Assembly (NCBI GenBank): GCA_037157565.1
Contig: JAZHRO010000073.1
Coordinates: 97,938,001 to 98,002,000 of the forward strand
Direction of reading: 5' to 3'
Length of the DNA stretch: 64,000 bases
DNA from: Thalassia testudinum
Taxonomy: Eukaryota; Streptophyta; Magnoliopsida; Alismatales; Hydrocharitaceae
Positions 18,405-60,498 of the stretch are shown one piece after another. Positions within the stretch are counted from its first letter, which is position 1, and every line of letters begins with the position of its first letter. The notes under the pieces are model-generated. The model was not told the DNA's origin and made no database searches. It was given only the letters and a program-made list of their open reading frames with translations. A program made the position numbers and the translations under genes.

Positions 18405-20077
18405 TGAAATTCCCTACTAGGAGGGGGTGACGTAATAATTGTGGAAATAAATAAAAAAAATCTCACAAAATAGACAATCACACAAGTACACAAGTATTTT
18501 TAGGTGAAAACCCAAACCGAGTGAAAACCACCACCTAACCCTCTCGAGTTAGGATTTTCCGATCAACCAAGTTGATCAAAATCCACTAAACGAATCACTT
18601 TAAACGAGGGTGATTCAACCTCAAATACAACCACGCTAGAAGTGCGAGGGTAGCGTTCCTCAACCCCTTCTCTTCACGAGAAGGATTTTGTCCCTCGAAG
18701 GAGACGGGTATTCGCAAAGCGAATACCCAACCAAATAACAAAGATAAAATCACAATAATCCTATAGAGCCAACAAAGTAATTATAAACCTAAGTTTCTAT
18801 AGGAATTAAGAAAACTCCCCTTTGCAAGGAGTGCGTCGGCGATGCGGATGCATGAACAACACGACGGCGCTACGTCACTCTCGTGAACTACGGCGGGAGA
18901 GCAGGTGCACAAAGCTTGATGCTCTCAAGATGAAGAATTAGAGCTTGGAGAGCAAGAGAGTCTTTTTGGACACAAAAGAGTGTGAAGGTGTGTAGCTAGG
19001 TGTGTCTTGGTGTATCAAGGCTCACCTCTATTTATAGAGGCCTTAGGAAGGCTTTGGAAGGCTTAGAAAAGCTTCCATAGCCGTTGGGTACAAAGCCCAA
19101 GTGAATCAACCCGAAATCAGGAACAATCATTACACTGACAGGGTTATCAGACGTCTAATTCTGGCATCAGACGTCTGGAAGACCACTTTAAGACTTCTGA
19201 TTTTAAGGTCAGACGTCTGATTTCAGGCGGGTTCCTTCCTAACTTGAATCAGAGCTAAACAGGGTTCTTGTGCAAGTCCATCAGATGACATACAGGACGT
19301 CTGGCACTATGTCTGGACGTCTGGAAACCTACTTTTTCGTGGGAATGGATTTGCAATGGCTAGAAAATCTCTGAACGGGTCAGTCGAGGCAAAACGGTCA
19401 ATTATCAGACGTCTGGAAGGGCTTAAGGATGTCTGATAAGGCTCTAACAGTCATATCATCGAGTGCTTGCTAAGAGAGCCAACAGTCCACTAATTAGACG
19501 TTTGGCAAAGTCATCAGATGTCTCCTAAGATGTCTGGTCTAAGGTCTGGACGTCTGATTTCATCAGACAGAACTAACTTGTCCAGCCTAAATGTTATCAG
19601 ACGTCTGAATCAACAGTCAGACGTCTTAAAACACTTTATCAGACATCTGATTTGGGAATTAGACGTCTGGAAATGCTGTTTAAACCCTATATTGGTTTTC
19701 TAAGTTCTCTATAGAAAACCTAAGTATCATAGGGTTGTGCCGGTGTTCCTAGGACTACTGTTAGGGTACTTTGAGGCTCTTTAACATAATTTTCTAAGGA
19801 AATAAAGAGCAAGAAAAAAATGACAAATGTACATGAAAGTAATAAAAAGAATTCTATCCTATTCTTCTTGTCCTTCCATCTTCAATCTATCGCTCCTCGC
19901 GAATCTCCTCTGTTCTCCATCAAGCTCCTCAAATCTGTGCTGGATGTGAGCTCGAATTCTGTCTAAACACGTCTACATTTGCAATTGACCTGAAATCTAA
20001 GACTCCAAGTGCAAATGTTAAATAACATATGTTTTGTTATCATCAAAACAAATGATCGTGGTGCTCTAGCACCAACA
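18405..20077 (-). repeat. 3' LTR of Sirevirus C with GACGTC palindrome array
   Basis: On the minus strand the LTR starts TGTTGGTGC at 20077 and ends GGGAATTTCA at 18405. Between about 19140 and 19680 it carries some fifteen full or half copies of the palindrome CAGACGTCTG, spaced irregularly. A TATAAATA box sits inside a perfect 16-bp palindrome at 19025-19040. Dense palindrome clusters in LTRs are a known Sirevirus trait; the sequence used here is its own variant. Confidence 0.9.
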
Positions 20078-21593: not shown

Positions 21594-23266
21594 TGAAATT
21601 CCCTACTAGGAGGGGGTGACGTAATAATTGCGGAAATAAACATAAACAATCTAACAAAATAGACAATCACACAAGTACACAAGTATTTTTAGGTGGAAAC
21701 CCAAACCAGGTGAAAACCATCACCTAACCCTCTCGAGTTAGGATTTTCCGAACAACCAAGTTGATCAAAATCCACTAAACGAATCACTTTAAACGAGGGT
21801 GATTCAACCTCAAATACAACCACGCTACAAGTGCGAGGGTAGCGTTCCTCAACCCCTTCTCTTCATGAGAAGGATTTTGTCCCTAGAAGGAGACTAGAAT
21901 TTGCAAAGCGAATACCCAACCAAATAACAAAGACAAAAGAACAATAATCCTATAGAGCCAACAAAGTAATTATAAACCTAAGTTTCTATAGGAATTAAGA
22001 AAACTCCCCTTTGTAAGGAGTGCGTCGGCGACGCGGATGCGTAAACAACACGATGGCGCTACGTCGCTCTCATGAACTACGGCGGGAGAGCAGGTGCGCA
22101 AAGCTTGATGCTCTCAAGATGAAGAATTAGAGCTTGGAGAGCAAGAGAGTCTTTTTGGACACAAAAGAGTGTGAAAGTGTGTAGCTAGGTGTGTCTTGGT
22201 GTATCAAGGCTCCCCTCTATTTATAGAGGCCTTAGGAAGGCTTTGGAAGGCTTAGAAAAGCTTCCATAGCCGTTGGGTACAAAGCCCAAGTGAATCAACC
22301 CGAAATCAGGAACAATCATTGCACTGACAAGGTTATCAGACGTCTAATTCTGGTATCAGATGTCTGGAAGACCACTTTAAGATGTCTGATTTTAAGGTCA
22401 GACGTCTGATTTCCGGTGGGTTCCTTCCTGACTTGAATCAGATCTAAACAGGGTTCTTGTGCAAGCCCATCAGACGACATACAGGACGTCTGGCACTATG
22501 TCTGGATGTCTGGAAACCTACTTTTTCGTGGGAATGAATTTGCAACTACTAAAAAATCTCTGAGCGGGTCAGTCGAGGCAAAACGGTCAATTATCAGACG
22601 TCTGGAAGGGCTTAAGGACGGCTGATAAGGCTCTAACGGTCATATCATCGAGTGCTTGCTAAGAGAGCCAACGGTCCACTAATTAGACGTCTGGCAAAGT
22701 CATCAGACGTCTCCTAAGATGTCTGGTCTAAGGTCTGGATGTCTGATTTCATCAGACAGAACTAACTTGTCCAGCCTAAATGTTATCAGACGTCTGAATC
22801 AACAGTCAGACGTCTTAAAACACTTTATCAGACATCTGATTTGGGAATTAGACATCTGGAAATGCTGTTTAAATCCTATATTGGTTTTCTAAGTTCTCTA
22901 TAGAAAACCTAAGTATCCCAGGGTTGTGCCGGTGTTCCTAGGACTACTGTTAGGGTACTTTGAGGCTCTTTAACATAATTTTCTAAGAAAATAAAGAGCA
23001 AGAAAATAACGACAAATGTACATGAAAGGAATAAAAAGAATTCTATCCTATTCTTCTTGTCCTTCCATCTTCAATCTATCGCTCCTCGCGAATCTCCTCT
23101 GTTCTCCATCAAGCTCCTCCAATCCGTGCTGGATGTGAGCTCGAATTCTGTCTAAACACGTCTACATTTGCAATTGACCTGAAATCTAAGACTCCAAGTG
23201 CAAATGTTAAATAACATATGTTTTGTTATCATCAAAACAAATGATCGTGGTGATCTAGCAACAACA
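21594..23266 (-). repeat. 5' LTR of Sirevirus C
   Basis: 1673 bp, the same length as the 3' LTR. The GACGTC palindrome array is at about 22325-22865. The TATAAATA box on the minus strand (22218-22225) lies inside the palindrome CCTCTATTTATAGAGG (22214-22229). The LTR start at 23266 reads TGTTGTTGC rather than TGTTGGTGC as in the 3' copy. Confidence 0.92.
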
Positions 23267-23923
23267 GATAAGGTCTCCATCATTGAGAAGAAGGTGGAAA
23301 AATTTACTTGACATCTCCAAAGAGTCATCTCTTCGCAGCAAAACATGTATGCACATCCACCCTTAGGTAGGGAACCCGTGCATAATATTCACCACCACGC
23401 ATATCATGGGATGGATGCCTATCCAACTCCATCTGATCCAGGTTTCGGAGGAAACTCTGGACCATCCTACTCTAGTTGGGGGAACTCCGAACCTTCATAC
23501 TCTAATTACTCTGGAGTTCCTCAAACCTGCGAGGATCTCCACACCATCCAGAATGACCCATTCTCCAACTCATATAACCCTGGATGGCATAATCATCCGA
23601 ATTTTGCGTGGTCTAGAAATAATCATAACTTGAGACCTCAACTCTAACCCTGAGTACAAGACCCACAACCATATCAACCCACTCAGCCTAGGCCCAACCC
23701 GAATTTCCAAATAGAGTCCAAAAAGGAAGATCAAATGAGCTTGATTTTGTAGACATTGGCTAAGATGCAGAAGGCCAACACGGCTATACAACAATAGCAT
23801 GAGGCGTAGATCATAGAGGTCTGTAATCAACTTGCACAAATGACATGGACTCGCCAGCTTGGTGCACTTCCTTCCCAACCTCTACCAAATCCAAACATGT
23901 CAACCTAGAAACATGTGGTGAAC
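23267..23923 (+). pseudogene. Gag of element J, C-terminal part
   Basis: Continues J after Sirevirus C with a short coiled coil (KVSIIEKKVEKFT). A Ser/Tyr/Pro-rich stretch of about 100 residues follows (23345-23560), then the family signature NSYNPGWHNHPNFAW at about 23571-23615. A stop ends the longest frame at 23645. After it comes a glutamine-rich region (about 23725-23890), read with further stops. The composite element interrupts at 23924. Confidence 0.85.
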
Positions 23924-25631
23924 TGATGTAAACATGTTTACACTACTTAAGATGTCTTTTTATGCATGTTCCTAAGCATAGGATTGCATTGCATACTATA
24001 AATATTGCATAACATGCATCATCTTGCATTTAGATTAGTTTAAATAAAATGAAGGTTAATTATCTCCTTTTATGTTCATAGACAGGGAAAACTTTCTATC
24101 GGGGCCTCGGATCGAAGATCCAACTGTACAGATGTGATCAGGGTGACGATTGGAGTTCAACGACACCAAGATTGCCCTAATTAGACATCTATAGCATCAG
24201 ATAGTGACTGGGGAACCCTAGAAGATCAAGGGCCAAGATGGTGTGAATCTGCACTTCAAATGAAAAATTCAACTGCACGGATGGATTCGGATTGATGATC
24301 GCAGCCTAACGGCACAAAAATCAACTCAATTCGACAACCGTGGCACCATCTACATCATCCAGAAGATGGACGGCCAAGATGGCGCCACGTGGTTCCATCT
24401 CAGCCACCCAATCGGCCGCTGCAGTCGCCGCACCATCTCTTCTTCGTCAGTTCTCCGCCGTTGGATGTGCATCCAACGACTGTGGATGCGCATGCCTAAA
24501 TTCATCTCTGCGACCATCTCTCCTCCACAATGCAGCGGGTGAATGCCTTATCGCGAGCGGGCGGTGCACATTCGAGCTTGCACGAGAGGCAATTGAGGTG
24601 CGGGTGAGTGGGCTCTGCGATCGCTCAATCGTAATCGAGCGGCTGTGGGCACCCAATCCGTTCCACACTCTATCGCACGCCTATGCGTGATGCGAGATCG
24701 CATGCGAGAGAGCACGCGCTGAGGAGCGGGCGAAGGTGTAACTTAAGCCATCCGATCGTGAGATCAATTGGATGTGGAGAGCGTGTTATGTGTGAGGAGG
24801 TGAGCGGCCACGCGCTTGTGCCCCCACTACGCCTACGATGGGGCTTTAGCGACGGTTTTATCCGTCACTAAAGACCCCTGATTTAATTTTTTTGAGTTGC
24901 AATGACCAAATTGCCCCCACTCCTTGCAACTATAAAAGGATAGCCCCTCCACATGAAATTCTCATCCCTTCCTTCTCTTCTCTCCCTCTCAAAAGCTCAA
25001 GAGAATCTTGTCCCACACCCGGGATAATTCTCACGAGATAAAGTCAATTTTTCGTCCCCCTTTCGGAAGCAGATCCCGTGACAACGATGACGTGTTGCCC
25101 CGTTCCCATTCTTCCTACTTCGCCCTCCTTTGTCCTGCTCCATCCTCCTTCGTCCAGGCGTCATCCCATCTGGTTCATCCTCCAAGTGACCGTCGAGGAG
25201 GATATCTCTCTCCCCATTCTTTTTATTGCTTTCTAGAATAGATTTACTGCTTTCTAAAGTAGATTTACTACTTTCTAGTGTAATCATTTTCCTGCTTTCT
25301 AGTGTAATGAATAATCTTTCTGATGATGAAATTCCATGTTCATTCTACATCTCTTTTTGGTTTTTGTTTGTAATATTCTCTCTCTCTTTTATTCTCTCTC
25401 TCTCTCTTCTATTTATTGTAAATAGTTAGATAGTTCTAATCAATTAATTTACTTCGTGACAAATAAAACAAACGTGTGTTTTTAAATCAAACATTTGCCT
25501 CCCTGTGTTTGACCTGCGATTTCCATTCCGGTATAAATTTTATTTGTTGAACATGAGTTCTTCACTTTCATACTACGACGACAGGTTTTTCAAAACCAAA
25601 CACGTTAGCATAGCAACTCGCACGTTCAGCA
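23924..25631 (+). repeat. Unpaired plus-orientation LTR of the composite (family A)
   Basis: 1708 bp, starting TGATGTAAACATG and ending CACGTTCAGCA. TATAAAAGG is at 24931-24939, the upstream hairpin at 24841-24877 and a CT-rich tract at about 25376-25410. It has no internal region of its own. Its U5 end is followed by TTT and the tRNA copy exactly where a primer-binding site would begin. It shares the U5 variant AACTCGCACGTTCA with the adjacent inverted LTR, whereas the other family A LTRs read AACCCGACGTTCA or AACCCAACGTTCA. Confidence 0.9.
24931..24939 (+). promoter_or_regulatory. TATA box of composite LTR(+)
   Basis: TATAAAAGG in the U3/R boundary region, preceded by the 24841-24877 hairpin and by a C-rich stretch. 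The same box and spacing are present in all family A LTRs. Confidence 0.6.
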
Positions 25632-25634
25632 TTT

Positions 25635-25709
25635 TGGCGCCGTTGCCAGGGATCGAACCTGGGTCGCCCGCGTGACAGGCGGGAATACTTACCACTATAC
25701 TACAACGAT
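25635..25709 (-). tRNA. Full-length tRNA-Asp(GTC) copy including CCA, at the primer site
   Basis: The minus strand reads as a full-length tRNA-Asp: 7-bp acceptor stem, an A-box-like TAGTATAGTGG, anticodon loop CTGTCAC (anticodon GTC), T-loop TTCGATC, acceptor 3' strand, discriminator G and CCA. Compared with the standard plant tRNA-Asp it has an A instead of G at position 1, one variable-loop change, and a compensatory A-T pair at 51-63 in place of G-C. Plant nuclear tRNA genes do not encode CCA. Here CCA is present and its complement starts three bases after the LTR end, exactly as in a primer site. I read it as a reverse-transcribed copy of the primer tRNA, not an ordinary gene. The internal Pol III promoter boxes are nevertheless intact. 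Confidence 0.88.
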
Positions 25710-25752
25710 GAGTATAGTTGTAGTAGTATGAAAGCGTAATGAACCCTAGTAA
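25710..25752. other. Filler between tRNA copy and inverted LTR
   Basis: 43 bp. GTTGTAGTAGTAT (25717-25729) is an inverted echo of the tRNA 5' part ATACTACAAC (25697-25706). GTAGTATGAAAGCG (25723-25736) is identical to 25808-25821 inside the neighbouring LTR. The last two bases, AA, may be the complement of the TT(T) that follows an unprocessed LTR end. This looks like snap-back copying followed by a template switch. Confidence 0.6.
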
Positions 25753-27436
25753 TGTTGAACGTGCGAGTTGCTACGCTAACTTTTTTGGTTGTAAAAAACC
25801 TATCGTGGTAGTATGAAAGCGAAGAATTTGTGTTCAATAAATAAAATTTATACCGAAATGGGAATCCCAGGTCGAACACAGGGAGGCAGATGTTTGATTT
25901 AAAAACATGAGTTTGTTTTATTTGTCACGAAGTAAATTAATTGATTAGAACAATCTAACTATTTACAATAAATAGGAGAGAGAGAAAGAGAATAAGAGAG
26001 AGAGAATATTACAAACAAAAACTAAAAAGAGATGTGGAATGAACATGGAATTTCATCATCAGAAAGATTGTTCATTACACTAGAAAGCGGGAAAATGATT
26101 ACACTAGAAAGCAGTAAATCTACTCTAGAAAGCAGTAAATCTATTCTAGAAAGTAGTAAAATGAATGGGGAGAGAGATATCCTCGACGGTCGCTTGGAGG
26201 ATGAGCCGGAGGGGATAACGCCTGGATGAAGGAGGATGGAGCAGGACTAAGGATGGCGAAGCAAGTAGAACGGGAATGGGGTAGCATGTCGTTGTCGTTG
26301 CGGGATCCGCTTCTGAAAGTGGGACGAAAAATTGACTTTATCTCGCGAGAAGCATCCCGAGTGTGAGACAAGCTTCTCTTGAGCTTTGGAGAGGGGGAGA
26401 AGAGAAGGAAGGGATGAGAATTTCGTGTGGAGGGGGTCTCCTTTTATAGTTGCAAGGAGTGGGGGCAATTTGGTCATTACAACTCCAATAACATTAAATC
26501 AGGGGTCTTTAGTGACAGATAAAACTGTCGCTAAAGGTCCGAACGTGGGCGTAGTGGAGGCACGGACGCGTGGCTGCTCACCTCCTCGCGTATAACGTGC
26601 ACTGCACGTCCAGCTGATCTCAGTGCGCGCCCGCTCCTCAGTGCGCGCCCGCCCATGTGCGATCCCACGTCACGTGCGGGCGTGCGATAGAGCGTGGAAC
26701 GGATTAGGCACCTGCAGTCGCTCGATCGCAATCGAGCGGTCATGGAGCCCGCTCACCCGCCCCTTAAGTGCCTCTCTCGCAGGATCGAATGCTCACTACC
26801 CGCTCGCGATAAGGCGTTCACCTGCTATGGTGTGGAGGAGAGATGGTTGCAGAGATGAATTTAGGCGTGTGCATCCACAGCCATTGGATGCGCATCCAAC
26901 GGCAGAGAAGCGATGAAGAAGAGATGGTGCGGCGGGTGCAGCGGCCGATTAGGCGGCTGAGATGGCACCACATGGCGCCATCTTGGCCGCCCATCTTCTT
27001 GATGGAGTAGATGGTGCCACGGTTGTTGGATTGAGTCTATTTTTGCGCTGTTAGGCTGCGATGGTCAATCCGAATCCATCCGTGCGATCTAATTTATCAT
27101 TTGAAGTGTGGATTCACACCATCTTGGCCCTTGATCTTCTAGGGTTCCCCGGTCACTATCTAATGCTATAGATGTCTGATTAGGGCGATCTTGGAGTCGT
27201 TGAACTCCAATCGTCACCCTGATCACATCTGTACAGTTGGATCTTTGATCCAAGGCCCCGATAAAAGGTTTTCCTTGTCCATGAACATAAAAGGAGACAA
27301 TTAACCTCCTTTTTATTTAAACTAATCTAAATGCAAGATGATGCATGTTATGTAATATTTATAGTATGCAATGCAATCCTATGCTTAAGAACTTGCATAA
27401 ATAGACATCTTAAGTAGTGTAAATATGTTTACATCA
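25753..27436 (-). repeat. 3' LTR of element A
   Basis: 1684 bp in minus orientation, with its LTR end at 25753 facing the tRNA copy and its start TGATGTAAAC at 27436. Just inside is the purine-rich tract AGAGAGGCATGGGGTTA (minus strand, 27453-27437), which identifies it as the 3' LTR. The upstream hairpin is at 26503-26540 and the TATA box on the minus strand near 26445. Confidence 0.9.
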
Positions 27437-29045
27437 TAACCCCATGCCTCTCTTTTGCTAGTCCCTAGCAAAAACTATATGCTATTTATAAAAGAATCAG
27501 GTTGGATTATTTGGGCATTAGTTATTTTCAATCACTAAGAAAATGTCTACTTTGGATCTGAACTTTCAAAGACACAACAGTGCCCGAGTATCTGCCAAAA
27601 TGCAGACTGTCTCAAGCCCTTGCCTTACTCAAAGAAAAATTTCTTTTTCTCTTTTTCCTCTTTTCTAATTTTTTTGGATTTTCAAGTTTTAGGGTTTAAG
27701 AGTGGCTTTCTACGGCCATTCAACTCATCCAGGATTTGATGGGAACCCTAAGTTCTAAGCATCTTATTGTGAATGTGATAGACTTGTTGACCGGTAGTTA
27801 AAACGGACTTCGGATTTCTATGCCTCTAGGTGACCTAAAAAAGAGAATTCTGCCTAAAGGTGTATCTTTACAACCGATAGCTTTCTCGCTACTTTTATTT
27901 TTTTACGGGGTCAACACAAGGGTGAATCCAGTGTATATCTTCCCGGTTTATTCTACTTCTCCGCTTCTTCCTAAGTGTTTTGGGGTTTTTCAGTCATTTA
28001 TTGAGCTGGGTTCTGGACAACCGGTCGATGAGCTGTTACCACCAATAACTTGCCAGCCATACTCATGCGGCGAAGTGCGGCTTATTTCTTTTTTTTATTA
28101 TTATTTTTTTCTTTTCTCCTTTTTTTTTCTCTTTTTATGTAGGTGGCTTCCCTGGTCTAAGATTTACCTAAAGGCAGCAAAAAGAGAAAGATCCAGTGAC
28201 TGGGCTTTAGACAACCGGTCAATGGGCTGTTACCCACGATAACTTGCCAGCCATATCACCCTAGAAGGTTCATTAGCTACCCAATTTCCGTTAAAATCGT
28301 CGAACAACGAGTCATTGCAAAGAAAGTATATAGATGCTAAAAACTCAAAGTTCCTTCAAATCAGAGGGCAGGTTGATAAGTCGTGTACTTATCACCCAAA
28401 CTTATTTACTCCAATTAAAATGGAATTCAGGTTGGTGAGGACTCGAAAGAGAAATCCATATTTTAATGGATACACAGGCTAATTAAGTGTAAAGACCTGA
28501 AGGGCCTTTGTGTTCAAATCATAATGTGGTATTTCCTAAGATTGAAAATTTTCTTAAACCCAAGTTCTCTCTCCTAATTCCAATTTTTTTTTAATAAAAT
28601 AAAATAAATCTACGTAGCTGACGAATAAATTTAGAGATAAATACCCACCCCCCATGCTTATCTAATGCAATGTCCTCATTGTATTAAAAAGACATAAAAT
28701 AGAGTGGAATAGAGTAGAAAGCACCTGAATTGCTTGAATGTCAGTTCCGCTCCAAGATAAAAACTAAAAAGAACTGTATATGTACTGAATTTAGTGCCTT
28801 CAGCTAGGCACATTATACAAAGAAGAGAAATAAAGAATTCACAGGTGCAAGTCAGAATCAGAATAAACATAAGAAACCACTGACCTGTTAGCAGATGTCC
28901 ACAAATGTGGACCAGATTGTGGTGCAGACCCGTACCCCATAATCGAGAATATCTTAGGTTCTGGATAAAAATTACCCAAAACCTAAAATCAATATGCAAG
29001 CAGGATCGGGGCTGCGATTTATGAGGATGCAACCCAAGATCAAAA
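27437..29045 (-). other. 3' noncoding region of element A with duplicated 60-bp block
   Basis: Noncoding. The two block copies are at 28009-28072 and 28201-28262, separated by a T-rich tract and the GTGGCTTCCCTGGTCTAAG block. The conserved ATGCAATGTCCTCATTGTA hairpin is near 28664-28682. The piece reading GLHHNLVHICGHL (near 28950-28915) also occurs in J at about 44220 as LTPHHDLVLICGHL, so A and J are related in their 3' parts. Confidence 0.72.
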
Positions 29046-30463
29046 AGTTGAGTTACAAAGAAATCAAGCTCAAAAGGATAATCATTGAATGTGTGCTTGG
29101 GTTCAACATCCTCAGAACAAATGTAGTAAGGGTCCTAGTTTGATGGTTTCAGCTTAATATGAACCCTTCGACTTAGTCTTCTACTTCCTCCAGAACTTGC
29201 TTCCCAAATCAAAATTTCCCGGCTCCTATCCTCCTCATTCAGCATGTCAAATTCCAGGACCTCTTGCATATTAATCACCCCATCTAAAATCTCCAAGTCT
29301 AATTGATGTGGCTGAATCAGAATTGACTTGGGTCTAATTATCTCAGAAACAGAATCATTGATAAGCTCAACAGGGTGTAACTGACAATCAGGGCATTAAA
29401 TTGAATCCTCCAGAAAATGCGATTCTGGATCCGTAATGTGAGCCCTAATAAGATCAGTTTCCTCAATTATTGGGCTATCAAATGATCTATCAGATTCCTC
29501 AGGCCCAATCGTCTCACAAAAATCATATTCTGTAAACTCGTGTGAGACTTTGCAACTTGAATCTTCACCATCAGAATCAAAGAAATCAAGATCCGTATTA
29601 ATGTATGTCTAAAAATCATCTGTCACTTTCTGTTCCAAGGAGACATACATTTCCTTGTACCCTGGCTCAAGGATCTCGGGTGAAGAAATCAGATCATCCT
29701 TAATTGGTTGCTCTAATTCAATCTGGTCAGCCTCGTAGCACGTGTCCCCCCTAACAGGTGCCTGAGCAGGTTTTGACATTGGATCTCCTGAAGGGAGTTC
29801 ATCCTAAGAATCATCCCACGACTGAACTAAAGCAACCACAAATCTCATCCTCAATTTCGCTAACTTCCCAAGTAGAAACTCACCTGGGTTCTTATCCTTA
29901 ACATCCTGGAGCCAATCCAACAAATACATATTCAAATCATCAATCATCTGAATCAGGGGCTCCAATCTTTCAATGGAAGGTGTTGGCTGAACTTCTAAAG
30001 TTTGTATAATATTTCTCAAGTTAGCCAAAACCTTATCTTGAACCTGGTTACCCTGAACCAAATGAATTGGTTTAGGGTTGGTCGGGTTTGGGATCAATGT
30101 AGGGGAGTTAACGAATTGAGATTCGTTATACCCTTCCTGATAATAGGTCATTTTGGATTGTGCAAAAGGTGGTGATGACCTAAAGGCAGTGTAATCAGAG
30201 GATAGGTAAGGATCGATGTATCCTTCTTGATTGAAGATCGTATTAGGTTGTTCATGAAAGGTTGACAATGTATAATCGATGTGGCTCTAAGAAGGATAGA
30301 AATCACAATCAAAGTGTTCAGGGTTAGACCCTAAATACGGAGGTCCGAAATTGTTTTCCCAATCCGAGTTATCCCAACTAATTGATAGTTGATTACAATA
30401 CGAGTCGGAATAATCGTCATGTTGAGGATAATTCAAAACAGGAGGGAAAGAGTGGGAATGCAT
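29046..30463 (-). pseudogene. ORF-X of element A
   Basis: The presumed start is ATG at 30463 (MHSHSFPPV). N-terminal Tyr/Asp/Pro/Ser-rich region (DYSDSYCNQLSISWDNSDW), then a long open frame (30268-29804): MTYYQEGYNE, then the helical core NQVQDKVLANLRNIIQTLE and GEFLLGKLAKLRMRFVVALV. An acidic, stop-interrupted linker follows (about 29800-29330). The C-terminal block (29284-29046) with MQEVLEFDMLNEED, ILIWEAS and DPYYICSEDVEPK corresponds to the C-terminal blocks of K and L. No catalytic, zinc or membrane motif is visible. It occupies the place of gag-pol, directly after the candidate leader intron. It may be a much altered Gag or a captured gene; I cannot decide. Confidence 0.6.
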
Positions 30464-30508
30464 GTAAAATGTGGAAGGATCATGAGAGATGGGAGGAAGA
30501 AAGGTACC

Positions 30509-31499
30509 CTGCAATACAAACAATCAAACCTGTCCTTAAGTGGGCTAGCCTAAAGACATACAGACTCCCAAAACCCGTCTTGAGATAAAGGAATGATTTG
30601 ATCTACTTCTGTCTGTTCAATCCAACCAGTTAGGAGGGATTGGGGAGAAGGTTCTTCCTTCGGCTTGCGCCTTTGGTTCCTAGTGTACCCCCCAGCCGCG
30701 ATCATTTGATTCTGCTCCCCTTGCTAGACATCAGATTGAACAATAGAAACAGACTAATCGAAAATGATCTCATTCTGGGCTCTGAAAAGCGAGTCGAATC
30801 CTGAAGGCCAACGTCTACTCTGTTTTATTTAGGGCTAGGTTTGAATGTGCTTTGGAATATGATGGGCCCTTTATTTGGGTTGTGCCCTTAATGATTGATT
30901 GATTTGTGTGTGCGTGCACAACCAGTGATTTTCAAGCAATATTATTTTTGATGCGATGAATTTTAGGGTTCAAATCTTGCTTAGTAGCTTTTAGGATTCA
31001 ACTTTAGGTGTTTTCAAACAAGTTTTGTTGACACACCAGGTTTTGAAAGCACAGGTGAAGATGTTTTCCTTTAAAACTTAAAAGAATATAGAGTGCTTGG
31101 TAAATCCCTAAGAGTTGAACCTATGTGGCAGCTACTTGATGAGTTGATTTTAATTGAAGTGGTGCGGCCCGATCAACTCAAACAATTGGCCTGTTGCACC
31201 ACTTAATTAAGCACACAAGTGATTACCTAATCTGATTTCTACTCAATTATGTGTTTGGATGTGTGTATCGGCTCCAAAGATCGGTTTACCGGTTGAGTTT
31301 GAAAATCAGATGAGGTTGTGTACCTCTGTGAGATTTTTTTTTATTTTTTTATTTTTTAATGTGGAAGTTGGGGCTAGTGTGGGTGTCAAACAACAAACAA
31401 TCTAACCTTAGAATTCATAAGAACACCTAGGTTGATTGATGTTTGTGTTATTACTTGGTGGAATGAAATCTAATGGGTGGGAGGTGGGGAATAACTCAC
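30509..31499 (-). other. Candidate leader intron of element A
   Basis: Minus-strand donor GTGAGT (31499-31494) and acceptor TTGTATTGCAG ending at 30509, followed by GGTACCTTTC. Context equals that of H, K and L. The interior is noncoding, with the shared leader blocks (CGATCATTTGATTC, GAAGGTTCTTCC). Confidence 0.45.
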
Positions 31500-31641
31500 A
31501 GAACCTTTAATAGCACTTTTCTCCAATCTACCATTTTTGCTCGTCTCGAAAGAGTACCTGCAATTACAATAAGAAAGGAGAGAAGTGAGGTAAATGATTC
31601 GTAAGTTGTAAAAACGCGAAGAAAAATCAAGGATCATTGCC

Positions 31642-31659
31642 TCCTCGGCAAGGGCGCCA
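31642..31659 (-). promoter_or_regulatory. Primer-binding site of element A (tRNA-Asp type)
   Basis: Minus-strand TGGCGCCCTTGCCGAGGA, three bases inside the LTR end at 31663. It matches the tRNA-Asp complement in 16 of 18 bases. Contrast this ordinary short site with the full tRNA copy at 25635-25709. Confidence 0.88.
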
Positions 31660-31662
31660 AAA

Positions 31663-33352
31663 TGTTGAACGTTGGGTTGTTACGCTAACGTGTTTGGTTT
31701 TGAGAAACCTGTCGTCGTAGTATGAAAGTGAAGAACTCGTGTTCAACAAATAAAATTTATACTGGAATGGAAATCCCGGGTCGAACACTGGGAGGCAGAC
31801 GTTTGATTTAAAAATGCGCGATTGTTTTATTTGTCACAAAGTAAATTAATTTATTAGAACTATCTAACTATTTACAATAAATAGAAGAGAGAGAGAGACT
31901 ATTACAAGCAAAAATCAAAAAGAGATGTAGAATGAACATGGAATTTCATCATCAGAAAGATTGTTCATTACACTAGAAAGCGGGAAAATGATTACACTAG
32001 AAAGTAGTAAATCTACTCTGAAAAGCAGTAAATCTATTCTAGAAAGTAGTAAAAAGAATGGGGAGAGAGATATCCTCCTCGACGGTCACTTGGAGGATGA
32101 GACGGACGGGGCGACGCCTAGACAAAGGAGGACGAAGCAGGACGAAGGAGGGCGAAGTAGGAAGAACGGGAATGGGGTAGCACGTCATTGTTGTCGCGGG
32201 ATCCGCTTCTGAAAGAAGGATGAAAAATTGACTTTATCTTGCGAGAAGCATCCCAGGTGTGGGAAAAGCTTCTCTTGAGCTTTGGAGAGGGAGAGAAGAG
32301 AAGGAAGGGATGAGAATTTCGTGTGGAGGGGGTCTCCTTTTATAGCTGCAATGAGTGGGAGCAATTTGGTCATTACAACTGTAAAAACATTAAATCAGGG
32401 GCCTTTAGTGACGGATAAAACTGTCTCTAAAGCCCCATCGTGGGTGTAGTGGGGGCGCGCGCGTGCGGCCGCTCACCTCCTCACGCATAACGCGCGCTGC
32501 ATGTCCAACTGATCTCACGATCAGATGGCTTAACTCAAGCCTTCGCCCGCTCCTCAGTGCACGCCTGCCCACATGCGATCCCACGTCACGTGTGGGTGAC
32601 CGATAGAGTATGGAACGGATTGGGCACCCGCAATCGCTCGATCGCGATCGAGCGGTCGTGGAGCCCACTCACCCGCGCCTCAATTGCCTCTCGCTCAGGC
32701 TCGAACGCGCGCCGCCCGCTCACGATAAGGCGTTCACCCGCTACGCTGTGGAAGAGAGATGGTCGAGGAGACGAATTCAAGCACGCGCATCCAGACCCAT
32801 TGGATGCGCATCCAACGGTGAAGAAGCGATGAAGAAGAGATGGTGCGGTGACTGCAGTGGCCGGTTGGGCGGCTGAGATGGCACCACGTGGTGCCATCTT
32901 GGCCGTCTATCTTATGGATGATGTAGATGGTGCCACAGTTGTCTGATTGAGTCGATTTTTGCGTCGTTAGGCTGCTATCGTCGATCCGAATCCATTCGTG
33001 CAGTCGGATTTGTCATTTGAAGTGCGGATTCACACCATCTTGTCCCTTGATCTTCTAGGGTTCCCCGATCATTATCTAATGGTACAGATGTCTGATTAGG
33101 GTGATCTTGTCGTTGTTGAACTTCAATCGTCACCCTGATCACATCTATATGGTTGGATCTTCGATCCGAGGCCTCGATAAAAAGTTTGCCCTGTCCATGA
33201 ACATAAAAGGAGACAATTAACCTCCATTTTACTTAAACTAATCTCAATGCAAGTTGATGCATATGATGCAATATTTACAATATGTAATGCAATCCTATGC
33301 TTAAGAACATGCATAAATAGACATCTTAAGCAGTGTAAACATGTTTACATCA
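31663..33352 (-). repeat. 5' LTR of element A
   Basis: 1690 bp, with its end GTTCAACA at 31663 beside the primer site and its start TGATGTAAAC at 33352. The hairpin is at 32398-32435 and the TATA box on the minus strand near 32340. It differs from the 3' LTR at many sites, so the composite is not recent. The short frames at 32557-32897 are by-products. Confidence 0.9.
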
Positions 33353-33381
33353 TGATCCAAATCCAAGACCAAGCTTGCTAC
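33353..33381 (+). pseudogene. 29-bp island of element J gag
   Basis: The short piece of J between the composite and solo LTR B4. It holds TGATC (right-hand target copy) and GCTAC (left-hand target copy of B4). Joined with its neighbours it restores the spacing of the Gag C-terminal region. Confidence 0.65.
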
Positions 33382-46972: not shown

Positions 46973-48696
46973 TGATCGCATGGGTTTCGCGTGTTTGAAA
47001 TTAGGTTTACGAGTAACCCGTCATTGTGGTTGCAAAACTCGTGATCAAATAAAATTTATACCGAAACTCCAAGGGAGTCCCGGGTTGAACACAGGGAGGC
47101 GACGTTTACTTTGAATGAAAATTGCACTTCGATTTGTTTCCTTTTGATGTTTTAGGGTTTTGTTATTTTTTTTGTTTTTGAAATAAAATGACAATCAATC
47201 ACAAGAGAGAGATAGAATTGAATCTAATATATTGCATGAATGTCAATTACAATAATATAAAAAACATAAAAAGAGAGGGAGGTGAGAAGAAATCTCCTAA
47301 AGCGACTGTTTGGCGAGACGACAACACTTGGTGGAAGCTCGGATGAAGGAGTTAGGAAGAAGGACGATGGAGGTGAGAAGTAGGACGACGTCGGGTAGAG
47401 GAAAGCTTCAGCACAACTCCGAAATGGAGGTGGGAAGGCGGAGATGATTTGCTACAGGAATGGAGGTGGGAGGATGGCTCCCAAGCGTCCTATGAATGGG
47501 GATGGGAAGTTGGAGGAGTATTTGGAGGGGTAGAGTCTTGTTACACTAATAGGCACCTTGGGAGCTTGAGAGCAAACTTTAACAGAGCGTTGGTAGGCTT
47601 GCTAGAGCTTGGGAGTAGGTGGGAGTAGAGTAGGTAGAGATGACTTGGAAGGGAGGGGTTGTAGGTCCTTTTATAGTGGAGGAGAAGAGGCTAAAATAGG
47701 CATGGGACCATTAGCGACCTCCAGGCCGTCGCTGTAAGTGCCGTTGTAGGCAGCTCATGCCTGCTAACGTGCGCATTTGGCCTTGCAACTGTGAACAATT
47801 AGCGACAGCTATAAGCGTCGTTGTATGTCTGCTAAGCTGTTGCTGAAGCCTGGGGCCAACCGAACACGTGCCTACCCCATGGGCGTTATGTCATCTTGCC
47901 TTATGCATGCGGATTGCGCGGCGGTCCTGCTTGGAGTGCGCGCTGGCATGTGCTGTCGTGCGCGTTCACGTGCGCTGCTGGTGCATGCTGGCGCTGCGAA
48001 TTCGTTGGCTGGATTGAGAATGGGGGGCTGCGGGGATTCGAACTCACGCCCCTCCCTTGTGAGCTGACGTTTACACCGTTGTGCGACGTCTGCATGTGTG
48101 TTGAGAAGAGGAGTTGCGGCTGCGTGGTGAGGGCAAGCTCTCAACCGTTGCATTTTCATCCAATAGCTGAGATCACTTGATGGGTGGCCCTTAGAGATGT
48201 GGCGGGTGGCTTTGGGTGCCCTAGATGGTGCCACATGGCACCATCTGAACTGTCCACCCTTCATTGTGCAGAGGATGCCACAGTGCTCGGATTGAGGTGA
48301 TTTCTATGTTGTCGGACTACGATCCTTGCTCCGGATCTATCCGTACAGTTGGATTTTTCATCTGAATTCTCTAAGGACGTCACATTGCCTCCCTGACCAT
48401 TGATCTTCCTCGGACTTCGTATGATGCTACGGGACTCCGATCTAGATGATTTCAGAGGCGCTAGACTCCGATCGTCATCCTGATCAAATCTATATGGTTT
48501 GCTTGTCCATCTGAGGCCCTAGAATAAGTATTCTTCCCTCCTCACCATAAAAATGACCTAATTAACCCAAAATATATGCAACTACTCTAAATGTAGAATG
48601 ATGCATGCTATGCTATATTTATCACATGAAATGCAAATCTAAGCCTAGGAACATGCATGAGTAGGCATTTTAACCTAAATAGATTTGTTTACATCA
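46973..48696 (-). repeat. 3' LTR of element K
   Basis: 1724 bp, from end TGATCGCATGG (plus-strand reading) to start TGATGTAAAC at 48696 on the minus strand. The adjoining minus-strand tract GGCTTGGAGGTA is the polypurine tract. The TATA box on the minus strand is near 47678. GC-rich open frames at 47825-48264 are overlapping by-products on both strands. Confidence 0.9.
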
Positions 48697-50122
48697 TACC
48701 TCCAAGCCTATCTTTTGCTTATCCTTAGCAAAATTAAACTACATACTATGTATTAAAGTAGAATTAGGATTAGATCGCTCAGGCTTAAGTCATTTATTTA
48801 CAATAGAAAATTTCAACTAAGATCCTAAACAACGAAAACTCAACAGTACCCAGGTGTCTACCAGAATGCAGACCACCCAAGTCCTTGCCTTATTTGAAAA
48901 GGGGAAGATACATTTTTTTTATTTTTCTTCATTTCTAATTTTTTCGTACTTTTGGAGTTTGAGAGTTCCGGGATAACCTTTTACGGCTACTTGACCCGCC
49001 CAAGACTCGAAAAGGACTCTAAGTGCTAAGCATCTAGTGAAAAGAGTGAAAGACTTACTAGGCGGCCGTTAAAATGGACTTCGGGGTTCTACGACAATAG
49101 GTGACCTTGCCTAAAGGTTTATCTTTTCGAACGGTAGCTTTCTCCCTACTTTTATTTATGGGGTCAACATAACGGCGAACCCCGTGTATATCTTCCTGAT
49201 TTATTGTACTTTCCTACTTCTTCCCTAAGTGTTTTGGGAATTATTGTGCATTTTTTTTTTGTGAGCTGGGTTCTGGACAACCAGCCAATGGGCTGTTACC
49301 CACGACAACTTGCCAGTCATACTCATCCGGTGAAGTGTGATTTTTTTATTATTTATTTTTTTCTCCTTTTTTTTCTTTTTCCTTTTTTTTTCTTTTTAAG
49401 TAGGTGGCCTTCCTGATATAAGGTTTACCTAAAGGCAGTACAAAGAAAATGGTCATGTGACTGGGCTCTGGACAATCAGCCGATGAGCTATTATCATCGA
49501 CAACTTGCCAGCCATACCGCCCTAGGTAGTTCATTAGCTACCCAATTTCCAAAAAAATCATTGGAAAGTGAGTCAGTGCAAAAAAATAGTTGTACATGCT
49601 TAGGCATAAAGTCCCCCTTAATCAGAGAGCGGGTTCATAAGTCGCATACTTATCATCCTAATTTATTTACTAAATTAAAATGAATTTTAATTGGCGAGGA
49701 CTCGAGACAGTCCACATTTGAGTGGACACTTGAGCTAATTAAGCCTGAAGACCTGAAGAGTCTAAGTGTCTAGGTCTTATCGTATCATTTCTTAAAGTTA
49801 ATAATTTCCAAATGCCTAAGTTCTCTTCTCCTAATTCTTTTTTTTTATCTTTTTGAATTTTCACTTTTTTTTATAAGAAACTGAAAGAAATTCTACAGAG
49901 TTAACAAAATGATCTCAGGAATTGATTATCCACCCGCAATGCCTAAATGATGCAATGTCCTCATTGTAAAAACAAAGACATGAAAATGGCAGAGTAAACA
50001 GAATATCATCTGAACATCGTGAGCAATCCGGTCAGCTGCATAGAGAACGTAAAATATAAACACGTGCTAAATTTAATGCCTTCAGCTAGGCATAAAATAC
50101 ATACAACGAAGAAATTGAGAAT
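48697..50122 (-). other. 3' noncoding region of element K with duplicated 60-bp block
   Basis: Block copies at 49267-49327 and 49458-49520 with a T-rich spacer. The ATGCAATGTCCTCATTGTA hairpin is near 49950. It ends at AGAAT, the target of L. Confidence 0.72.
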
Positions 50123-51636
50123 TGATATAGACACACCTATTTAGGTTAAAATGCCTATTCATGCGTGTTCCTAAGCTTAGATTTGCATTTTATGTTATAA
50201 ATATTGCATAGCATGCATCATATTGCATTTAGAGTAGTTGTTTATATTTTAGGTTAATTAAGTCCTTTTTATGGTCAGGAGAGAAGAAGACTTATATTAG
50301 GGCCTCGGATGGATGATCGGACCATACGAATCTGATTAGGATGATGATCGGAGTCTAATGCCTCTGAAATTGTCTAGATCGAAGAACCGTAGCATCATAC
50401 AAAGTTTGAGGAAGATCAACGGCTAGGGGGCAATGTGACATCCACATGAGTTTTTGATGGAAAATCCAACCTTACGGATGGTTCCGGAGCGACGATCGTA
50501 ATCCAGCAGCGTGAGAATCATCTCGATCTAAGCACCGTAGCACCCTCTACAAAAGAAAGAAGAATGGACAACCCAGATAGCACCATGTGGCACCATCCAG
50601 GCCACCCAACGCTAGCCAGCAGCAGCGCACGCGCACAGCCGCAGCCGCGTGCAGTGCACCGCTCATAGCGTAGCCGTGCGCAGTACCATAGCGCATGCCA
50701 GTGTGCGCGTGTGCATGGTACGGGGAGCATGGGCGTGTGAAGCGCGCAACGCGTGATGGGCGCAACAGCAAAGCGTATCTTCAGCGATGCGTGCCTTTAG
50801 TGATGCTTGCAGCTGTCACTAATGGCTTGCATGTGCCAGCAAGAGGATTTGAAGGGTGGATCTTCAGCGATAGCTACAACGATGTTTATGGATGTCAGTA
50901 ATGACCCAGATGCGAATTTGTTCCTCCTCCAATATAAAAGGACCTACCCACCACCATTCCAAACCATCTCTTCCTTTCTTCCTCTCACCACCTCCAAGGC
51001 TCTAGAGAGAGCTTGTCCCAAGCCTGGGATGCTCCTCTAGAGTAAAAAATCAAATAGTTTTCCCTCCTCTCATCCCCATTCATGGAGCATCCCATGGCCG
51101 TCCTTTCACTGCCCTTTGGGAATAAGATCCTCGCCGCGACACCGTCCTGCCCCATCCTTCGTTCTCTGGCTCTATCCTCCTTTGTCCTGCTCCTCACCAC
51201 CTTCCTCCAGTTGATGTTAGAGCGAGTCGTCCTCAGAGCAACCGTCGAGGGGGATTTCTCTCACCTCTTTCTATCTTTTTACGCTTTCGTAGTGTAGTTT
51301 TCCTGCTTTCATAGTTGTAACAAACAGTTGTTTATGAATAAATGATTATTTCTCTCTCTCTCTCCTTCTCTCTCTTATATTTTTGCAAGTAAATAAAGTT
51401 TTCATCGACCTAATCTCTTGCTTGTTAAAAATACCAAAAAAATTAGAAAAGATAAAAATGACCAAAAGAAATAAAAGTAAAGCATGGATTTCATAAAAGC
51501 AAACGTTCGCCTCCCCGTGTTCGACTTAGGACTCCCTTGGAGTTTCAATATAAATTTTATTTGACCACGAGTTTTTCAACTACAACGATGAGTTACTTGT
51601 AACCCCGATCTCAAACTCGCGGAATATGTGTGATCA
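50123..51636 (+). repeat. 5' LTR of element L
   Basis: 1514 bp, TGATATAGACAC to ATGTGTGATCA. TATAAAAG is at 50933-50940 and a CT microsatellite at 51350-51374. It is followed by TTT and the primer site TGGCACCGTTGACGAGGA (51640-51657). Confidence 0.9.
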
Positions 51637-51639
51637 TTT

Positions 51640-51657
51640 TGGCACCGTTGACGAGGA
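51640..51657 (+). promoter_or_regulatory. Primer-binding site of element L (tRNA-Asp type)
   Basis: TGGCACCGTTGACGAGGA, three bases from the LTR end; 15 of 18 bases complementary to tRNA-Asp(GTC). Confidence 0.82.
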
Positions 51658-51809
51658 GGCAACGCTCTTTGGGTTTTTTTTTTCTTTTCTGTGTTTTTCC
51701 TCATACCTAACTTTTATCTCACTTTTTCTCTGGTCTTACTGTGATTGCAAGTGCTCATTCGAGGCGGGCCAAAGTAGTTAGATCAGAGAAAAGTGCAGAT
51801 GAAGGTTTT

Positions 51810-52852
51810 GTAAGTTTATCCCCACCACCCCCACCCACTAATTCATTTCACCACACTAATAACTCAAACCCAAATCAACTTAGGTGCTTTTTGTAAACCC
51901 TAGGATAGATTTAGTTGTTGTTTGCTACTTCCACTCATCTCACCCCCGCATATAAAAGAAAAAATACTCTTCTCTTGTGGGATTTTCTGAAAGCTACACA
52001 CTTAACACCCACAACTTCTCACCCTAAGGCACACAATCACATCGATTCTACCACTTAACCGGGATCTAACCTATGGACCTGGTATACTTAACTCAACACA
52101 CAAATATGTGAGTAGAAATCTGAATAGGTCAAACATTTCTGTGTGCCTTAACTAAGTGGTGCAATAGGTTGATTGCTTGAACTGTTTGGGCCGCACCATT
52201 GAAAATAAAAGCGATTCATTAAGTAGCTTGCCACTTAGGGTTGATTCTTAGGGTTGAACCAGGCACTCCACATTTTTTCTCTGATTTCTAAAGGAACATA
52301 TCATCACCCGTGCTTTCAAAACTTGGAGTGTTCTACTAAACCCTGATTGAACCAACCTAAGAATTAAACCCTAAAAGCTACTAAACAAGGTTAAATCCTG
52401 AAAGACACATCATCAAATAACCTTGTTTGAAAACCCCGGTTGTGCATGCACACACATTTTAACTTATCATTAAGGGCACAACACATCTAAAGGGCCCATC
52501 ACACTCGAAGAGCATGATCATCCCAAGCCTAACTAAAACTGAGTAGACGTTGGCCTTAAGGATTGATTTGCTCTTCGGGGCTTAGATTGAGATTTTTTTC
52601 TATTAATCTACTTATGCTAGTCCATCTGATGTCTAGCTAGGGGAGTAGTGTCAAACGACCGCGACTGGGGTGCACACTAGGAACCAGAGGAACAAGCTAA
52701 AGGAAGAACCTTCTCCCTAGTACCTACTTCTAACTGGTTGGATTGACCGGATAAAAGTAGACTAAATCATTTATAATCTCAAGACGGGTCCTGGGAGTCT
52801 ATAGGTCTTTAGGCTACCCACATTAGGATAGGGTTGATTGATTGTACTACAG
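51810..52852 (+). other. Candidate leader intron of element L
   Basis: Donor GTAAGT at 51810-51815, acceptor TACTACAG ending at 52852. ORF-X starts 38 nt later. The noncoding interior contains the leader blocks common to H, A and K. The 153-nt exon 1 would join the primer-site side of the leader to the ORF. Confidence 0.45.
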
Positions 52853-52890
52853 GGCACCTTTTTCTCTTCTGATTTCCCTCCTACTCCACA

Positions 52891-57584: not shown

Positions 57585-57780
57585 AGAATTCACAAGTGTG
57601 GGTTAGAATCAAAATAAAAATATTGATTCACAAACCCACCAACCGAAGATGTCCACAAACGTGGACCAGATTAGGTGCAGACCCATGCCCCAAGGTCGAG
57701 TGGTTCTTAGGTTCTTGATAAAAATCACCCAAAATCGAAGGGCATCGCAGTTTTGTGGTGTGCAATCCAAGACCAAAGTG

Positions 57781-59240: not shown

Positions 59241-59278
59241 GGTAGAATAGGAGGGAAATCACAGGAAAGAAAGGAGCC

Positions 59279-60330: not shown

Positions 60331-60477
60331 AAAGTACTCTATCCGTACTTTACTCCAGTCTACCGCACTTGGATCTCCAAACTAGGGTACCTGCAAGGTA
60401 GTAGATCAAAGATAAGTGGGGTTAGTGCTATGTAAATGAAAAGAAGTGCAGAAAACAATAAAGCAAATTCCATTGCC

Positions 60478-60495
60478 TCCCCGGCAACACTGCCA
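60478..60495 (-). promoter_or_regulatory. Primer-binding site of element K (tRNA-Asp type)
   Basis: Minus-strand TGGCAGTGTTGCCGGGGA, three bases inside the LTR end at 60499; 15 of 18 bases complementary to tRNA-Asp(GTC). Confidence 0.82.
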
Positions 60496-60498
60496 AAA

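Follow-up and report, generated by a model that had tools for sequence, protein, structure and literature searches.

The window (the whole 64-kb stretch of DNA that was analysed) contains, at positions 23924-33352, one integrated molecule. It consists, in this order, of a plus-strand LTR, the trinucleotide TTT, the full-length complement of tRNA-Asp, a filler of 43 nt and a complete, reversed LTR retrotransposon, termed element A. This layout had been the core of the original prediction and is confirmed by direct reading, ARAGORN and Rfam. The plus-strand LTR (23924-25631, U3-R-U5), termed LTR(+), was recognized by BLAST against the LTRs of element A, and its ends, TGATG...CAGCA, were read directly. 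In the flank read to its left we looked for a PPT or an internal region and saw none. Its U5 includes the motif ATACTACGACGAC (25570-25582, plus strand), 12 of whose 13 bases are identical to the complement of tRNA-Asp nucleotides 1-13. The TTT spacer between the LTR end and the tRNA complement (25632-25634, plus strand) is identical to the one that precedes the PBS of element A. It is followed by a full-length copy of tRNA-Asp(GTC) including CCA (25635-25709, minus strand), detected by ARAGORN and Rfam (RF00005, 52.8 bits) and examined by alignment. The copy extends to nucleotide 1 or 2: opposite nucleotide 1 there is a T, not a C, and this base was thus either changed later or never copied. 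Apart from this ambiguity at nucleotide 1, LTR(+) and its tRNA copy have the composition of plus-strand strong-stop DNA, namely U3-R-U5, the spacer and a tRNA stretch from CCA to the 5' end.

The filler (25710-25752) is partly U5-like. Its 14-mer GTAGTATGAAAGCG recurs at 25808, the local score of bases 25710-25751 against the U5 of element A was matched by none of 2000 shuffles, and the final two bases are compatible with the spacer of an unprocessed U5 end of element A. Element A itself, in minus orientation, comprises a 3' LTR (25753-27436; identified by BLAST among the LTRs, ends read directly), an internal region with the PBS at its 5' end (27437-31662) and a 5' LTR (31663-33352), the U3 start of which forms the right-hand border of the composite. 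It has the hallmarks of an LTR retrotransposon: two TG...CA LTRs, a PBS after the 5' LTR and, ahead of the 3' LTR, a purine-rich stretch that we judged by eye to be the PPT. In its own PBS the TTT is followed by TGGCGCCCTTGCCGAGGAGGC, which departs from the tRNA sequence after ~18 nt; the tRNA copy next to LTR(+) is therefore no ordinary PBS. Since its three open pieces of at least 90 aa gave no Pfam match, element A is probably non-autonomous. It has no recognized pol domains and may be kin to a Gypsy partner; Asp-primed plant Gypsy elements, such as Athila, exist. Elsewhere in the window an element P is nested inside an element Q at 50123-57584, with AGAAT flanking both sides. Two pieces of P and Q matched no Pfam family, and a PDB search with a piece of Q found nothing.

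The composite integrated as a single unit

The composite is flanked by TGAAC on the left (23919-23923) and by TGATC on the right (33353-33357), which differ by one change. Taken alone, this match in four of five letters gives a likelihood ratio of only ~25. The inner flanks, compared by eye, show no duplication: AGTAA and TGATC for element A, and TGAAC and TTTTG for LTR(+), agree in one of five letters each. A search for an empty site within the window itself found none; such sites turned up only in a genome-wide search, in which 40 of 7,160 candidates were scored and 20 of the 30 matching copies were then fetched. The joined flanks match at least 30 homologous repeat copies (30 of 42 match rows) straight across the site, with an identity of 83-87%. 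All 20 inspected copies continue into the right flank without an indel at the site, and each carries one single 5-mer, most commonly TGAAC (12 copies), followed by TGAAT (three), TGATC (one) and four other forms found once each. As these empty sites show, the TGAAC/TGATC pair is a true target duplication, as had been supposed for these outermost flanks, the only ones that resemble each other. A chance match of the outer flanks is ruled out by the same sites, and so are separate target duplications for LTR(+) and element A. The unit has the marks of an insertion made by integrase, a short target duplication around it and empty sites, and the proposal that it integrated as one piece is borne out by the homologous copies.

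The three LTRs of the composite show a pairwise divergence of ~12% and form a star, with K2P distances of 0.131, 0.136 and 0.137, compared to 0.216-0.221 for an outgroup solo LTR; the site patterns are 99/97/92 (chi-square p 0.87). A tree built from 16 of the 27 LTRs recovers them as a clade (support 100/99). The tree places B with A3 (87/87), and the two LTRs of element A are not sisters in it. The sister alternative is not rejected (AU p 0.124), so that the tree alone does not decide. Three equidistant LTRs in one clade fit integration as a single unit.

LTR-tRNA joins are a recurrent class in the genome

A search of the same genome for further LTR-tRNA-inverted-LTR junctions had been suggested. 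With up to two mismatches, the junction pattern gave 153 matches in the whole genome and none in the reversed control; the pattern of an ordinary LTR-PBS junction gave 13,192 matches (control 0). Joins of an LTR with a tRNA copy are a recurrent class, and the composite is not unique. The non-redundant set comprises 111 copies, six near-identical loci (L030, L072, L079, L080, L084 and L102) having been dropped from 117; 39 of the loci were chosen by BLAST alone and 72 were found only by the pattern search. The tRNA copy ends within nucleotides 1-5 in 72 of the 111 copies and at nucleotide 1 in 40. Manual assignment of junction classes left ten of these 72 near-complete copies without a class; 62 run into element sequence after the tRNA, and six show head-to-head joining to another LTR, which is thus a minority outcome. 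Among the partners of other tRNA copies are gag, RT and RNase H sequences. The junction of L097, which has no Pfam match, is labeled by what we take to be an integrase-like appearance, and that of L066 by a match below the Pfam cut-off.

The chimeras elsewhere are integrated units too, because their outer 5-mers are identical in eight of nine testable loci (L009, L010, L013, L018, L019, L022, L024 and L033). The outer ends of L014 agree in four of five letters, 12 of 20 long loci have no testable end pair, and L114 was followed short of its right end. In L019, L033 and L114 there are inverted pieces after which the first orientation resumes, and the outer ends of L019 and L033 are one U3 and one U5. 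The largest junction cluster links 14 loci, in most of which the entry point is the U5 end, PBS or leader, and a single break point is common to L057, L067, L085 and L103.

A mismatch hot spot opposite A58 points to tRNA as the template

Textbook reverse transcription relies on m1A58 of the primer tRNA, which normally stops plus-strand strong-stop synthesis. Position 58 (sense) of the 111 copies is A in 80, T in 28, G in two and C in one; in 28 of the 31 wrong cases, the cDNA has an A opposite A58. There are 29 transversions at position 58, compared to 54 in 7,316 cells over the other 74 sites (Fisher p 2.4e-33), the neighboring sites of the 72 pattern-only loci being biased to sameness since the pattern, which left A58 free, allowed only two mismatches elsewhere. 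The 39 BLAST-only loci are unbiased in this respect, and here transversions amount to 13 of 39 at position 58 and 13 of 2,831 elsewhere. When similar junctions are collapsed, the 76 singletons still show 17 T, one G and one C. T58 is present on all four typed position-20/44 backgrounds, and the base at position 58 varies even within the largest junction cluster (seven A, six T, one G). Incomplete tRNA copies, which also extend past A58, have fewer mismatches (5 of 39 compared to 26 of 72, p 0.014). According to excerpts of PMC4787781, RT misincorporates dATP very efficiently in the context 5'-m1A-U-3', and m1A-U is the context of A58 in the tRNA-Asp found here. The mismatches of the class are concentrated opposite A58 and of the kind expected for m1A-U, and m1A58 is its probable cause, although the lower mismatch rate of the incomplete copies speaks against this reading. 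The copy in the window has the correct base opposite A58 in the alignment and so does not itself display the mismatch. A similar pattern for tRNA-iMet gave only nine matches, some of which are probably genes; the base opposite A58 is T in eight, C in one and A in none.

A search for tRNA-Asp genes yielded 49 matches, and the 11 that least resembled LTR joins were fetched, as a sample rather than a gene census. Seven proved to be full-length genes, of which one has a single difference elsewhere; all seven carry A58, and they span three of the four position-20/44 backgrounds. L127, L129, L132 and L135 resemble LTR copies in decay, and T58 is present in one of the four. Outside the 11 fetched, the match C34:74045052 is without a plain CCA and has G at position 58. 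As the full-length genes examined do not have the mismatch peak of the class, a tRNA gene was rejected as the source. The CCA end, the TTT spacer as in an ordinary PBS, the 40 of 111 copies ending at nucleotide 1 and the A58 hot spot indicate that a tRNA, not a gene, was copied. They favor the aberrant cDNA, with the tRNA copied to its 5' end, that the original prediction had invoked.

Proposed origin of the composite

The single insertion, the CCA-bearing tRNA copy at the PBS position, its recurrence and the A58 hot spot of the class are direct observations. The reading we prefer, with a probability of about 0.87, is that strong-stop DNA in which RT had bypassed m1A58 and made a full tRNA-Asp copy was joined U5 to U5 to the cDNA of element A and integrated together with it. 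With the primer still attached, RT would have read through its 1-methyl-A58 and gone on to the 5' terminus of the tRNA; because it did not stop at A58, the plus-strand strong-stop DNA would carry the whole tRNA-Asp copy. This DNA, of the same family as element A, would have been joined to its cDNA either by RT template switching or by alternative end joining, the filler then being templated, and integrase would have inserted the product through its two U3 ends. The copies elsewhere in the genome suggest a general route, in which the tRNA copy, by its free 3' end, would enter element DNA at U5, PBS/leader, R/U3 or gag/pol and the resulting chimeras would then be inserted normally by integrase.

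The joining might instead have happened on the chromosome, if two cDNAs integrated pair-wise via their U3 ends and the free tRNA and U5 ends were connected afterwards with templated filler. U3 at both outer ends, the partly U5-like filler and the seemingly unprocessed inner U5 end of element A would agree with this. However, the inverted pieces that switch back in L019, L033 and L114 suit template switching better, and in L019 and L033 only one of the outer ends is a U3, the other being a U5, so we consider such an event unlikely, though worth keeping in mind. Less probable still is that the tRNA stretch was inherited, with some families having a long PBS and the copies deriving from few events. 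The junctions shared within clusters, up to 14 loci in the largest and the one break point of four loci, and the near-duplicates that were dropped speak for descent; the different bases at position 58 within clusters, the several tRNA backgrounds, the many break points and the same signature in the 76 singletons speak against it. Some inheritance, or a renewal in every cycle, is likely.

The remaining explanations have very little in their favor. A nuclear tRNA-Asp gene with an element inside or beside it, or a PBS recombined with gene DNA, would account for a stretch plainly identical to tRNA-Asp in a genome in which tRNA genes are present, but not for a CCA end that meets LTR-TTT precisely at the PBS position, for 153 matches to this join, for a mismatch peak absent from the seven full-length genes examined, or for 62 of 72 near-complete copies that by hand assignment run into element sequence; we think it very improbable. 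We give hardly any credence to two insertions independent of each other, with element A arriving later beside a solo LTR or a deleted element, although P in Q shows that nested insertions occur in the window. The empty sites refute this, barring a misalignment of the 20 inspected copies, since homologous copies lack the entire 9.4 kb and have a single 5-mer; moreover, the inner flanks are without duplication, the three LTRs are equidistant, and a solo LTR leaves the tRNA unexplained. Inverted repeats are prone to mis-assembly and the assembly alone was examined, yet the ~12% divergence between the three LTRs, the recurrence of the class on many contigs and the identical end 5-mers of eight in nine testable units make an assembly artefact scarcely believable.

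Relation to known systems

The original prediction knew of no such arrangement as a standard retrotransposon product. It does have precedents, described here from excerpts of the cited papers. Reverse-transcribed tRNA likewise adjoins an LTR end in a circular MMLV clone, in which the tRNA lies between the two LTRs (Colicelli and Goff 1986, as described in PMC12220202); this is a single, unintegrated circle with a spurious tRNA-Gly minus four bases, whereas here the tRNA is cognate, integrated, full-length in many copies and found in 153 matches. In an HIV provirus beside reverse-transcribed tRNA-Gly, a retrotranscribed CCA-bearing tRNA adjoins an integrated LTR, for which the authors propose self-priming and independent integration (PMC12220202); here, in contrast, the chimera lies between target duplications. 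Triticeae have complex LTR insertions, attributed to template switching, that are also chimeric cDNA units with outer LTRs resembling each other and a target duplication of 5 bp, but they have two cores with a common internal LTR, and the excerpts make no mention of tRNA, PBS or inverted (PMC1950507). The HIV-1 plus-strand strong-stop product P1 is the same intermediate, an LTR plus tRNA copied to its 5' end. P1 was described on tRNA lacking the modification, synthesis past A58 being seen in cells mutant for the methyltransferase, and it is absent from the excerpted list of active products, whereas the copies here are integrated in a natural genome and their mismatches point to bypass of methylated A58 (PMC13191261). 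In the bipartite PBS of Ty1/Ty3, a further segment of the primer tRNA is paired with the element RNA (PMC5371799); the candidate found here is a U5 motif that matches the complement of the tRNA 5' end.

A natural genome here records many failures of the m1A58 stop, whose chemical cause is apparently legible as a single-site mismatch. The frequency of m1A bypass by retroelement RTs, the fate of the over-extended strand and past tRNA modification become testable from sequence. Integrated LTR-tRNA fusions were once proposed as ancestors of tRNA-derived SINEs, and the genome supplies integrated examples of DNA with an LTR plus a whole tRNA, an intermediate which that model assumes. The U5 motif, finally, is a candidate second tRNA contact. 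Tentatively, and at somewhat less than even odds, we envisage a second tRNA-guided route of plus-strand transfer, in which m1A58 would be bypassed regularly, the whole tRNA-Asp copied and the new 3' end brought back to the minus strand at the tRNA-complementary U5 motif. The genome would then archive integrated LTR-tRNA fusions and, as dA opposite m1A58, tRNA modification over the age of the insertions. The U5 motif, a complement of the tRNA 5' end, is nearly identical to the new 3' end of the tRNA copy. A complement of at least 10 of 13 bases occurs in only five of nine U5 types, and one of at least 11 of 13 in 76 of the 111 U5s, mostly ~30-55 nt before the LTR end.

Structure of the composite

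The composite at 23924-33352 lies on contig C70 of the genome searched, a 4.26-Gb assembly of 237 contigs. It starts with a forward-strand LTR of 1,708 bp, LTR(+), from 23924. Then come TTT, 75 nt complementary to tRNA-Asp and including CCA, 43 nt of filler and, in reverse orientation, element A, a complete LTR element of 7.6 kb which ends at 33352. The tRNA copy is faced by the U5 end of the 3' LTR of element A, and the right outer end of the composite is the U3 start of its 5' LTR. Element A has an ordinary PBS with an identical TTT spacer. In the flank left of LTR(+), neither a PPT nor internal sequence was seen, and LTR(+)-TTT-tRNA therefore has the extent that plus-strand strong-stop DNA would have if its primer had been copied completely. 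Since the base opposing tRNA nucleotide 1 is mismatched, the copy stops at either nucleotide 1 or nucleotide 2. The original prediction, an aberrant cDNA with a tRNA copied to its 5' end and joined to a second LTR end, is supported.

The filler contains a U5 stretch overlapping a U5 motif that is complementary to tRNA nucleotides 1-13. Moreover, the final tRNA bases and the initial filler bases together form a 14-base match to the U5 of element P, elsewhere in the window, at 51579. Given these two matches, the templates may have included two or more U5s.

The composite as a single insertion

A query made by joining the final 200 left-flank bases to the right flank with one 5-mer matches at least 30 places over roughly its bases 1 to 224 with 83-87% identity (30 of 42 match rows; 40 of 7,160 candidates scored). 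Twenty of the 30 were fetched for inspection, and none has an indel at the insertion site. A 3-base insertion 26-30 bases upstream of the site is found in 18 of the 20, and in one copy, L153, a gap of one base lies 17 bases upstream. The single 5-mer reads TGAAC in 12 copies, TGAAT in three and five other forms once each, including TGATC. In the right flank, homology of these copies stops about 24 bases in, where other matches start. All 20 relatives run uninterrupted through the site with one 5-mer. The whole composite therefore lies inside a repeat of which other copies lack the insertion, and the 5-mer was duplicated, which upholds the claim of integration as one unit.

The K2P distances among LTR(+) and the 3' and 5' LTRs of element A are 0.131, 0.136 and 0.137, and the two-against-one site patterns number 99, 97 and 92. 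The nearest outside relative among 27 family LTRs, from locus L014, is 0.159 from LTR(+). In a tree of 16 of the 27 LTRs the three form a clade (support 100/99) in which the two LTRs of element A are not sisters, although their pairing is not rejected (AU p 0.124). Distances and tree agree with what a single insertion would predict. A solo LTR of the same family, K (1977-3657, reverse strand), has a perfect 5-bp target duplication, CTGGA, and is 0.216-0.221 from each of the three.

LTR-tRNA junctions recur in the genome

BLAST with the junction, the search suggested with the original prediction, yielded at least 39 further places where an LTR end is joined to tRNA sequence (40 of 1,138 candidates scored). 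A 34-base junction pattern, built from A, TTT and 30 bases of the tRNA and allowing any base at position 58, has 153 genome matches with at most two mismatches, and its reversed control none. The ordinary LTR-PBS-leader pattern has 13,192 matches (control 0), a crude ratio of about 1 to 86, since the two patterns are not alike. For the 5' half of the tRNA copy the genome has 291 matches, a count that takes in genes. We fetched 116 loci, the 39 BLAST places and 77 others among the 100 of the 153 pattern matches that were listed; with the window these make 117, or 111 after removal of six near-duplicates. The LTR ends joined to tRNA copies are of many different kinds. On contig C15, three loci (L078, L079, L080) share the same junction and downstream sequence at a spacing of about 5.1 kb. 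A few tRNA-iMet complements that have TGG towards the PBS may represent less frequent read-through on a different primer.

Other chimeras were likewise inserted as whole units. Both outer ends were readable in eight of 20 long loci, with identical 5-mers in seven; in L014, four of five letters agree. L033, completed with extra pieces, has outer 5-mers identical at 5/5. L019 and L033 are head-to-head like the window composite, but their outer ends are one U3 and one U5.

Mismatches peak opposite A58

Position 58 is the first base past the 18-nt PBS and is followed by U59. Of the 111 copies, 31 have a wrong base opposite A58, which reads in the sense direction as T in 28, G in two and C in one. 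Transversions number 29 at A58 versus 54 in 7,316 cells at the other 74 sites (Fisher p 2.4e-33). As the junction pattern restricts mismatches at its other positions, the 39 BLAST-chosen loci are the fairer set: 13/39 at A58 versus 13/2,831 elsewhere. The peak persists without similar junctions (19/76), and among the 100 listed pattern matches the cDNA base is T in 73, A in 24, C in two and G in one. T58 is found on all four tRNA backgrounds defined by positions 20 and 44. All seven full-length tRNA-Asp genes examined, representing three of the four, have A58. According to a review, m1A58 normally terminates plus-strand strong-stop DNA, and on a tRNA that lacks the modification copying continues to the 5' end (PMC13191261). 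A study of reverse transcriptase reports very efficient misincorporation of dATP where m1A is followed by U (PMC4787781), the context that U59 provides here. The A seen in the cDNA is the error that would be expected as a mark of m1A58. Three findings count against this reading: the mismatch is rarer in truncated copies (5/39 versus 26/72, p 0.014), the copy in the window carries the right base, and nine iMet pattern matches have no A opposite A58.

Sequences beyond the tRNA copies

Copies end at tRNA nucleotide 1 in 40 of 111 loci, within nucleotides 1-5 in 72, and stop earlier in 39. For the 72 near-complete copies the adjoining sequence, classed by hand, is U5 (17), U5 end/PBS/leader (15), internal A-like sequence (9), gag/pol (8), R or U3 (7), inverted LTR (6, including the window) or of no class (10). 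Pfam scans of eight downstream stretches support RT (L057), RNase H (L029, L047) and gag (L016); L066 has a weak integrase match below the cut-off, and nothing was found in L097, L049 and L113. The translated gag/pol stretches are same-sense; the longest frame of L113, which has no class, is antisense. Such classes would be expected of an over-extended plus strand whose 3' end enters element DNA wrongly.

In L057, L067, L085 and L103, four LTRs that differ in their ends are linked via the tRNA copy to one and the same point of an RT gene; this is either a hot spot or a chimera passed on by descent. Three copies (L011, L013, L083) enter at almost the same place, about 3014 of the internal region of element A, a possible hot spot. 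In L017, a tRNA copy and then, ahead of the flank, another U5 end follow an LTR which, being preceded by internal sequence, is a 3' LTR; copying of the tRNA can take place at the right-hand end as well.

Possible route of formation

Most likely, reverse transcriptase went past m1A58 while the primer was still attached and copied on to the tRNA 5' end, after which the tRNA-copied end became linked to a full-length cDNA at its U5, either through template switching or through alternative end joining in which U5 served as template for the filler, and integrase acted through the two U3 ends. Conceivably, two cDNAs paired first and were joined afterwards.

The U5 motif, scored as 11 or more of the 13 bases complementary to tRNA nucleotides 1-13, is present in 76 of 111 upstream U5s, mostly about 30-55 bases ahead of the LTR end. 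With other segments of the tRNA this level is reached in 0-4 cases (12 for the segment overlapping the motif), and with one shuffle per U5 in none. The U5s are related to one another, with only nine types at a 60% cut; five of these have at least 10 of 13 within 90 bases. Both LTRs of element A carry the motif, and close forms were seen by eye in K and P. The motif may provide another site of contact with the primer, as in Ty1/Ty3 (PMC5371799), or may be left over from a previous tRNA copy; on either origin it could serve as a landing place for the tRNA-copied strand.

Among titles and abstracts of the listed matches, from a search with subscription journals largely outside it, we found no report of integrated LTR-full-tRNA fusions in plants or of a genomic m1A58 mismatch record. 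Single retroviral precedents and complex plant elements made by template switching are already known. The SINE-origin model involves strong-stop DNA and primer tRNA.

Elsewhere in the window, element Q (46973-62229, reverse strand) is interrupted by the full element P (50123-57584, forward strand) with AGAAT on both sides, an ordinary nesting. Upstream of the composite, a direct 1.67-kb repeat pair (18405-20077 and 21594-23266, 96% identical) probably represents the LTRs of a younger short element.
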